From positions 310,001 through 374,000 of the forward strand of contig JAHBXN010000003.1 in the NCBI GenBank assembly GCA_019636475.1: a stretch of 64,000 nt of DNA, written 5' to 3'. A program made the translations under genes and the position numbers. Origin of the DNA: Phycisphaerae bacterium (GTDB lineage: Bacteria; Planctomycetota; Phycisphaerae; UBA1845; UTPLA1). The first letter of the stretch is position 1. Each line of letters begins with the position of its first letter. The notes below the pieces were generated by a model. That model had not been told where the DNA came from. It saw only the letters and a program-made list of their open reading frames with translations, and ran no database searches. Shown in pieces: positions 28,873-42,950 of this stretch.

Positions 28873-29044
28873 GCGGCTGTGTGTTTCCAAGCGGAGCACC
28901 GAACGAGTGCGTCGTAAGGACGGCGCCGTTCTCCCTCCAACAACCTGATCCCCATCGAATTGACAGGCCACGGCTGTTTCGCGCCTGGATCAGAAAACAA
29001 GTTCAATAGAACCGGATATTCATTTTAACTAGGAGACTTGATTC

Positions 29045-40998: not shown

Positions 40999-41038
40999 CA
41001 CATTGTCACAGCGGCCCCTAGTTGCGAGGATCAGACCT

Positions 41039-41950
41039 ATGTCAGCCCAGTCTGGTCGCGTCCCGAAAACGATCAGGACGATGCTCCTACTTCTCACTAT
41101 TGCAGTGACCACCCAACAAGCGATAGGCCAGCCCCGCGGCCGCGGCGGTACCCCACGTGACATCGGCCGGCCGGGCGAAAAGGACCCAACGGACGACGCG
41201 GAGCGCAACGCGAAGCTTCAGGCCAAAGCGCAGAAAATTTACGCCGAAGGCGAGGCCGCGCTGGCCAAGGACCGCATTCCGTATGCGAAGATGAAGTTCC
41301 GTTCAGTGGTCGAACTGGTCGGAGTGAGTGGGGTCGGAGAGTCCGCACTTTCGGCGCTGAAACAGATTCAGGCGCGAGGACAGGAAGCGCTGAATGATGC
41401 CCGAAGTCTGTACGAGAAGAAGGATTACGTCCTTGCGATCGAAAAGGCCCGATTCGTTCAACGGAACTATGCAAATATTCTTGGCGGCCTGAGCGTGGGA
41501 GGCGATGCGCCGAATCTCGCGACCCTCGCGGTCGACCTGATCAAGCAAATCGAGTCCGACCCGGCGGCCAAGCCCACGCTTCAAGAAGAACAGGCTCGCC
41601 CCCTTGCCAAACGGATTGAACGGTTCGAAAAGCAGGCTCGCACGGACAAGTCCCGGTTACTGGACGTGTACGATACATGCAGGAAACTGGCTTCCAAGTT
41701 TCCCGATTGTCCGACAGCAAAGACCTGCGTCGCGCGCTCCGAAACGCTTCGGAAGGACAAGAAAAACTGGAGTATCATCTCGCGCGAACGCGACCGGCGC
41801 GATGTTCTGTCACAACTCGGAAAGATCGAAGAACTTGAGAAGGCCGGTGAAGATGCAGCCGCCCGCAAAGCGCTGGATCGATTACTCATCAAACACCCGG
41901 GTAAGACTCGACAGGATTTGGAGAGGCTCTCAAGGACCAAGGTTGAATAG
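41039..41950 (+). CDS. Exported helical protein with TPR-like repeats, unknown function
   Basis: 303 residues from the ATG at 41039 with GAGGA nine bases upstream. A basic N-terminus and hydrophobic helix (TMLLLLTIAVTTQQAIG) form a signal peptide, followed by lysine- and glutamate-rich helices such as ALAKDRIPYAKMKFRSVVEL and DARSLYEKKDYVLAIEKARF, which have the spacing of TPR motifs. The C-terminal helix ends with a coil-like KIEELEKAGEDAAARKAL. Partner unknown. It precedes the 6S-like RNA gene. Confidence 0.75.
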   Translation: MSAQSGRVPKTIRTMLLLLTIAVTTQQAIGQPRGRGGTPRDIGRPGEKDPTDDAERNAKLQAKAQKIYAEGEAALAKDRIPYAKMKFRSVVELVGVSGVGESALSALKQIQARGQEALNDARSLYEKKDYVLAIEKARFVQRNYANILGGLSVGGDAPNLATLAVDLIKQIESDPAAKPTLQEEQARPLAKRIERFEKQARTDKSRLLDVYDTCRKLASKFPDCPTAKTCVARSETLRKDKKNWSIISRERDRRDVLSQLGKIEELEKAGEDAAARKALDRLLIKHPGKTRQDLERLSRTKVE

Positions 41951-42106
41951 CGCTTTCATTTCGCATTACATGATTCCGCGACGCACCGTTTTCGATTGAC
42001 TGCGCATTTCGTGAAAGTCAAGTCATTCCTGTTCGGATTGCGCGCAAAATCGAATAACTCCGAAACGAAGCGGCCGCTATTGTGCGCCGATGTTACGTAC
42101 GGGCCG
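41951..42106. other. Spacer before the 6S-like RNA
   Basis: No gene. An imperfect inverted repeat (TTGACT with AGTCAA around TTTC/GAAA) near 41995-42021 may be the end signal of the preceding gene, though it lacks a T-run. Confidence 0.35.
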
Positions 42107-42135
42107 TTGCAATTCGTAATCGGGGATGCTAAGAA
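42107..42135 (+). promoter_or_regulatory. Promoter for the 6S-like RNA
   Basis: TTGCAA, exactly 17 bases, TAAGAA (followed by T). It predicts a transcript start near 42143. It stands in front of a structured RNA with its own terminator. Confidence 0.65.
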
Positions 42136-42143
42136 TGAGTAGT

Positions 42144-42366
42144 TGGAAACGGTTGCTTCACTGCCATGCTCGAGACCGAGGGTGGCATTTCGTTGAACCG
42201 ATGCTGTTTGAACCCCGGGGACTTCGCGGTGCATGTATGCCGGGCGTACTCCGATGCGATCGGAGAGGTCCAGCCGACCCGCACGGTTCCCACCTATCAA
42301 GCGAAGGGTTCAAAGGAATTTGCCTTCGAACGGCATTGCGGTGGTGATGCAAACCCTCCGGCACAC
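42144..42366 (+). ncRNA. ssrS: Probable 6S RNA
   Basis: A roughly 220-base RNA gene between a promoter and a terminator, with no coding frame that fits. It folds like 6S RNA, the RNA that mimics an open promoter and binds the housekeeping sigma-RNA polymerase. A closing stem pairs GAGGGT (42178-42183) with ACCCTC (42353-42358), then GCAT with ATGC. A large central bubble follows, whose 3' side carries a small hairpin (42321-42335). An upper stem pairs TTTGAACC (42207-42214) with GGTTCAAA (42307-42314) and CTTCGC with GCGAAG, and a 7-pair apical hairpin lies at 42249-42265. The segment CTTCGCGGTGCATGTATGCC also resembles the apical arm of E. coli 6S RNA. Exact ends are inferred. RNase P, tmRNA and SRP RNA signatures are absent. 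Confidence 0.65.
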
Positions 42367-42367
42367 G

Positions 42368-42404
42368 GCCCGCTCGCGCGCCAGCGCCTGCGGGCTTTTA
42401 TTTT
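42368..42404 (+). terminator. Terminator of the 6S-like RNA
   Basis: Stem GCCCGC with GCGGGC around a GC-rich loop that can itself pair, followed by TTTTATTTT. It lies 15 bases before the convergent pgpA stop and so may also serve that gene on the other strand poorly. Confidence 0.75.
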
Positions 42405-42419
42405 GGAACACGGACTCGA

Positions 42420-42950
42420 TCAAAAAGACAGACTCGGAACCAGTGCGACTACCGCGTGCAGGATCGCGAGCGTGTACAGCCCCGCCACAACATCATCCAG
42501 CACGACTCCCCAGCCACCGGGCAGTTTTCGTTCGATCAGGTTGGCCGGCCAGACCTTTGCGATGTCGATCGCCCGCTCAATGAAAAACGCCGCAGTCACA
42601 AGTTGCCATTTCACCGGCAAACCAACCAGGGCGATGAGATACCCCGGAAGTTCGTCGATGACGTTTCGCTTGCTGTCTTTCTCATCGAGCACGCGGTCGG
42701 CATGTCCGGCGATCCAGATCGCGAAGAACGTAAAAGCCACGACAACGCCGACATATGCAGACGTGGAAAGTTGAAGCCAAAGAGTCAATCCGAGATAGAG
42801 CGGAACGCCGACCACCAATACAGCCACGGTCCCTGATGCGAACGGGACAAATCCGAGATATGCAAGCGAACCAATGAACAGCAGGGCGCGATCGCGGATG
42901 GTTCGCGGCGATGGATCCTGCGCTCCGGCATGGGACGATGGCTGAGTCAT
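42420..42950 (-). CDS. pgpA: Phosphatidylglycerophosphatase A
   Basis: 176 residues with four or so membrane helices. PgpA removes the phosphate of phosphatidylglycerophosphate to give phosphatidylglycerol at the inner membrane. Family motifs are visible: GFVPFASGTVA near the N-terminus, VIDELPGYLIAL with the acidic pair, and FFIERAIDIAKVWPANLIER with a conserved ending around GWGVVLDDVVAGLY. The ATG at 42950 (MTQPSSHAG) is chosen over a longer frame. It is 90 bases downstream of the MTA phosphorylase gene on the same strand. Confidence 0.92.
   Translation of the reverse strand: MTQPSSHAGAQDPSPRTIRDRALLFIGSLAYLGFVPFASGTVAVLVVGVPLYLGLTLWLQLSTSAYVGVVVAFTFFAIWIAGHADRVLDEKDSKRNVIDELPGYLIALVGLPVKWQLVTAAFFIERAIDIAKVWPANLIERKLPGGWGVVLDDVVAGLYTLAILHAVVALVPSLSF

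Follow-up and report, generated by a model that had tools for sequence, protein, structure and literature searches.

The stretch analysed here is almost certainly a single-copy 6S RNA (ssrS) gene of a Phycisphaerae-like planctomycete, working by the general 6S mechanism, and an unusually strong switch built into this 6S RNA may help to release RNA polymerase. 6S RNA is a small RNA that mimics an open promoter and restrains RNA polymerase; it acts as a global brake on bacterial transcription and has been studied chiefly in Proteobacteria and Firmicutes. As a gene it is ordinary, being one more member of a known RNA family. As a phylum-level case the locus is modestly interesting, since it comes from a phylum in which some genera were reported to be without 6S RNA.

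A search with RF00013, the Rfam family for 6S RNA and the check that the initial annotation had named, returned a match at 42155-42348 on the plus strand that spans model positions 1-187, the full length of the model, with a score of 46.8 bits (E 2.9e-6), the gathering score being 46.4. We take these positions as the core of the 6S RNA. No other Rfam family reached its cut-off anywhere in the window, by which we mean the whole 64,000-nt stretch of DNA that was analysed, and 6S was the only family with an E-value of up to 0.5 at this locus. Elsewhere in the window, the Guanidine-III riboswitch model (RF01763) gave a hit at 28878-28929 on the plus strand that lies below threshold, at 25.2 bits where the gathering score is 36 (E 0.38), and is probably due to chance. 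When the whole genome was searched with RF00013, 42155-42348 was the sole copy. Because the RF00013 match clears the cut-off by a thin margin of 0.4 bits, we built a model, R1, from 30 planctomycete sequences (alignment A3) with a hand-set structure; these sequences derive from RF00013 matches in 34 of 61 genomes, comprising the genome of the window and 60 relatives. R1 scores the present gene at 117 bits (42160-42347) and detects a 6S gene in 52 of the 61 genomes, and among the good genomes in 43 of 47. One relative (G048) carries two 6S genes of 137 and 132 bits (L002 and a second place at C1:1228698-1228873), while the other matching genomes have one. With E. coli ssrS, fetched as a control, R1 produced an end-to-end match of 52.9 bits (E 2.4e-13 in 801 bases), and the R1 training set contains no proteobacterial sequence. 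Taken with the RF00013 match at this locus, the R1 match to E. coli ssrS indicates homology in both directions. The initial annotation had proposed a probable 6S RNA gene with part of its apical arm resembling E. coli 6S; the first proposal is upheld by the RF00013 match, the recovery of E. coli ssrS by R1 and the covariation described below, and the alignment supports the second and extends the likeness along the whole length of the RNA.

The region from 42140 to 42410 folds at -119.9 kcal/mol, and none of 200 dinucleotide shuffles folds as well (z -3.56), which bears out the strong self-complementarity first noticed in the sequence. All of the elements of the fold that follow are on the plus strand. 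The fold and the covariation define a closing stem whose 5' arm (42151-42199) includes the 5' strand of helix P2 (TTGAACC, 42193-42199) and whose 3' arm (42306-42355) includes the P2 3' strand (GGTTCAA, 42307-42313) as well as the 3' strand of a predicted central bubble collapse helix (GGGTTCAAA, 42306-42314). The 5' side of the central bubble occupies 42200-42216 and contains the 5' strand of the predicted collapse helix, TTTGAACCC, at 42207-42215, and the 3' side of the bubble, seen in the fold and in the E. coli alignment, occupies 42292-42306. Above the bubble, the 5' strand of the upper stem (42217-42223) pairs with its 3' strand (42285-42291) to form helix 7, in which 94.5% of cells are paired. 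An apical hairpin at 42242-42271, GGGC-GUA-CUCCGA-loop-UCGGAG-AG-GUCC, is found in the fold, as helices 8 and 9 and in the E. coli alignment. Of the layout first described, the closing stem, central bubble, upper stem and apical hairpin stand, but the 3' side of the bubble forms a poor hairpin in this RNA, with a duplex energy of about -2.4 kcal/mol, and the stronger alternative pairing of the bubble is with its 5' side.

Covariation was scored over 41 pairs in alignment A4, which holds 67 sequences realigned with the covariance model. Across these pairs 87.9% of cells are paired, compared with at most 48% in slid controls; the fitting of A4 to the structure works in favour of the paired fraction. 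Changes on both sides occur in 28 of the 41 pairs, and compensatory change was observed in 336 cells, compared with 111 in shuffled alignments and no more than 126 after one strand had been slid. A plain MAFFT alignment of 30 sequences gave the same verdict, with 84.4% of cells paired and at most 53% in slid controls. The covarying parts are the closing stem, P2, the upper stem and the apical hairpin. Since RNAalifold, given the plain MAFFT alignment, recovered no helix beyond the closing stem and P2, the upper stems were set by hand before realignment with the covariance model. The paired positions are conserved in relatives, with strong compensatory change in both the 30 and the 67 related sequences. 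Of the two outcomes that the initial annotation had listed as refuting it, failure to match any 6S model and unconserved pairing in relatives, neither was observed.

The gene has its own promoter and terminator, as the initial annotation had described. The promoter, read from the sequence, lies at 42107-42135 on the plus strand and consists of TTGCAA (42107-42112), a 17-base spacer and TAAGAA (42130-42135); a TG at 42127-42128, upstream of TAAGAA, makes this an extended -10 element, TGCTAAGAAT. At a similar distance from the gene, relatives most often carry TGCTA or TGGTATA, preceded in the nearest of them by TTGCAT or TTGCTT. A simple promoter scanner found nothing at this promoter because TAAGAA deviates from the pattern that the scanner requires. 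The intrinsic terminator (42368-42404, plus strand) comprises a GC-rich stem seen in the fold, 42368-42373 with 42390-42395, followed by the T-run TTTTATTTT at 42396-42404. It too was missed by a simple scanner, probably because of its interior loop, and a similar stem and T-run follow the 6S gene in most relatives. From the positions of the two elements, transcription is predicted to start near 42142, giving a putative primary transcript of 42142-42404 on the plus strand.

The neighbors of the RNA gene are convergent, in agreement with the initial reading. Upstream, an open frame of 315 amino acids on the plus strand (41003-41950) ends at 41950, and downstream, a gene for PgpA (PF04608) on the opposite strand ends at 42420. 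A Pfam search with the 315-residue protein yielded no match; the place of its gene near the 6S gene is constant across several relatives. The convergent pgpA gene is kept beside the 6S gene in some relatives and the 315-residue gene in others, one or both being nearby at L008, L009, L020, L023, L024, L027, L031, L032, L034 and L035. Those relatives found via PgpA that have names are Phycisphaerae and other Planctomycetota metagenome bins, and this gives the window its taxonomic position. One of the sequences, L035 (CP030884.1), is labelled Planctomycetaceae, a label that may be loose; its PgpA and its 6S RNA are close to the Phycisphaerae-like group of the window.

Several other readings of this locus deserve consideration. 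Open frames at 42166-42774 (plus strand, 202 amino acids), 42233-42583 (plus strand) and 41956-42300 (minus strand) would allow the stretch to be protein-coding. However, the tblastn similarity of the plus-strand frames in relatives falls mostly outside the RNA part, antisense to pgpA, and is weak over the RNA itself; the matching part is split into two pieces in L014, and the changes in the stems are compensatory. We rejected the protein-coding reading on the position of the similarity and on the compensatory changes, and give it virtually no chance of being correct. An RNA of the Ms1 kind would also be 6S-shaped, binding core RNA polymerase without a sigma factor, and Ms1 is structurally related to 6S RNA (PMC9130861). 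Against an Ms1-like RNA stand the sequence identities shared with E. coli 6S, which lie in the bubble and near the product RNA start, the standing of 6S as the sole Rfam family at the locus with an E-value of up to 0.5, and the description of Ms1 from actinobacteria, and we consider it very improbable. Finally, some other structured element, such as a leader or the terminator-rich spacer of a convergent gene pair, might match 6S by chance, an idea that the barely sufficient Rfam score and the convergent intergenic site would favor. The match is nevertheless full-length, the detection of E. coli ssrS is reciprocal, the compensatory cells number in the hundreds, and relatives have a promoter and a terminator of their own at the gene. 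A chance match is extremely unlikely, and the recovery of E. coli ssrS together with the compensatory change refutes it as far as computation can.

In E. coli 6S RNA the template for the product RNA starts at U44, within GAGCCGAU. The sequence aligned to this region is GAACCGAU, which ends at T42202, and the alignment suggests that the product RNA should begin AUCGGUUCA, as compared with AUCGGCUCA in E. coli. The predicted template of a 14-nt product RNA, 5'-AUCGGUUCAACGAA, is 42189-42202 on the plus strand, with synthesis starting opposite T42202. At the level of sequence, the 5' bubble contains the product-start motif (CCGAU, aligned with E. coli U44) that places GG at product positions 4 and 5, and GG at these positions is a feature of the E. 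coli, A. aeolicus and R. sphaeroides product RNAs (PMC8414754).

On the general 6S mechanism, the long stem with its central bubble would mimic melted promoter DNA, and the RNA would sit in the active site of the RNA polymerase holoenzyme with the housekeeping, sigma-70-type factor; RpoD is encoded in the same genome (366 bits). When nucleotides return, the polymerase would start at U42202 and transcribe the 5' strand of the bubble into the short product RNA (AUCGGUUCAACGAA...), and this synthesis would open helix P2 (42193-42199 with 42307-42313). The freed 3' strand, GGGUUCAAA, could then form 9 bp with the repeat of its complement that the 5' bubble carries, UUUGAACCC, and the new helix would collapse the bubble and aid release of the polymerase. 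The binding, the product RNA synthesis and the collapse on release are inferred, and we judge the involvement of the collapse helix in release to be about evenly balanced.

The collapse helix arises from a second copy of TTGAACC in the 5' bubble, where 42207-42215 is a perfect 9-bp partner of 42306-42314. The calculated duplex energies for this RNA are -12.4 kcal/mol for the collapse helix and -9.6 kcal/mol for P2, compared with -5.3 and -14.5 kcal/mol, respectively, for the corresponding helices of E. coli 6S. In the fold of the free RNA, P2 has a probability of 0.87 and the collapse helix 0.01, the preference for P2 being due to the support of the long closing stem. When the product RNA template was blocked during folding, the collapse helix accounted for about 25-35% in this RNA, with other local pairings competing, whereas it was dominant in most RNAs of the order, with a mean of 6.1 pairs. 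We also carried out a permutation test with one sequence per family (37 families), in which pairing of a family's own bubble was compared with pairing to the P2 strands of other families. The z values are about -4.9 for the collapse helix, -10.6 for P2, -2.4 for the 3' hairpin and -0.6 for a control segment pair. Pairing of the collapse helix with its own partner therefore beats pairing with permuted partners across the 37 families, although the permutation limits the effect of relatedness and does not remove it. The helix pairs despite changes in its letters, with GAACCC:GGGUUC in this order, CCGCAG:CUGCGG in L165 and ACCCC:GGGGU in L149, so that both of the alternative helices, P2 and the collapse helix, covary. 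A direct pair count is weaker, with 68% of cells paired compared with 50-52% for the nearest slides, partly because the register of the collapse helix varies.

The repeat in the bubble could also have another origin in a genuine 6S RNA, namely the sequence demands of contact with the polymerase, with no release switch involved. Some bases of the B. subtilis 5' bubble do matter for binding itself (PMC8876501), and in this RNA the blocked-template fold favors the collapse helix weakly. Demands of contact are less readily reconciled with the joint change of the 5' and 3' strands between families, as in L165 and L149 compared with this RNA. We regard an origin in polymerase contact alone as a serious possibility, if a somewhat doubtful one.

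At an E-value of 0.001, RF00013 matched 97 of 195 sampled Planctomycetota genomes, which are spread over the phylum, 53 of them above the Rfam cut-off, and R1 matches were found in 65 of the 195. The 6S RNA gene is thus widespread in Planctomycetota, often below the Rfam cut-off, and since only 53 of the 97 matching genomes reach that cut-off, screens that depend on it will miss many. The literature that we found on planctomycetes and 6S RNA consists of reports of absence only, from Thermogutta (PMC5673643) and, in a 2014 screen as cited in that paper, from Pirellula and Rhodopirellula. The wide occurrence of the gene does not directly contradict the published absence in these three genera.

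Two fates have been described for the P2 3' strand once it is freed: in E. coli it forms a hairpin within the 3' bubble, and its partner in B. subtilis and A. aeolicus is the distal 5' bubble, with which it forms the central bubble collapse helix (PMC8876501). Both of these known release designs seem to be present in Planctomycetota. When the families are classed by their medians, a strong collapse helix without a strong 3' hairpin is seen in 13 families, the reverse in 7 groups (six planctomycete families and E. coli), neither in 18 and both in none; what counted as "strong" was decided by hand, and families that are related are not independent of one another. Both helices are strong in 2 of 116 individual sequences. 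The 6S RNAs of one family, f37 (L171-L182), are short, at about 155 nt; every one scores below the Rfam cut-off, and R1 misses most of them. Their 3' bubble contains a hairpin like that of E. coli, CCUGGAACC...GGUUCCGGG. In the f37 alignment this pairing lies on the 3' side, and the 5' side is without a strong partner.

Tentatively, and at a little under an even chance, we propose that the 6S RNAs of Planctomycetota fall into two groups by release design, with no co-occurrence of the two designs. In the first group, which as part of the same proposal would include this RNA with all of its order and several further families, the repeat of the P2 5' strand in the 5' bubble would collapse the bubble; the alternative helices of this group would be close competitors, and the RNA would therefore lie near a two-state switch. 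In the second group (f37, f35, f22, f56 and others), the repeat would lie in the 3' bubble and form the E. coli-like hairpin. With both release designs in one phylum, the causes of the choice between them would be open to direct study.

Compared with known systems, this RNA shares with E. coli 6S (RF00013) its length, closing stem, central bubble, and upper and apical stems, as well as the product-start motif GAnCCGAU with its GG at product positions 4/5. The two differ in that E. coli 6S has an extended hairpin in the 3' bubble (-11.8 kcal/mol) that is weak here (-2.4 kcal/mol), whereas the partner of the P2 3' strand here sits in the 5' bubble. The gene order also differs, being zapA-ssrS-fau in E. 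coli, whereas the present gene sits between convergent genes. Ms1 RNA of actinobacteria has the general 6S-like outline and is bound by RNA polymerase (PMC9130861); it binds the core enzyme. In the bubble, this RNA resembles B. subtilis 6S-1 and A. aeolicus 6S, in which, as here, the distal 5' bubble is complementary to the P2 3' strand (PMC8876501). The B. subtilis collapse helix, compared by its description, includes G:U pairs and is weak at an A:U end (PMC8876501), whereas that of the present RNA has 9 uninterrupted Watson-Crick pairs and forms a duplex stronger than P2.
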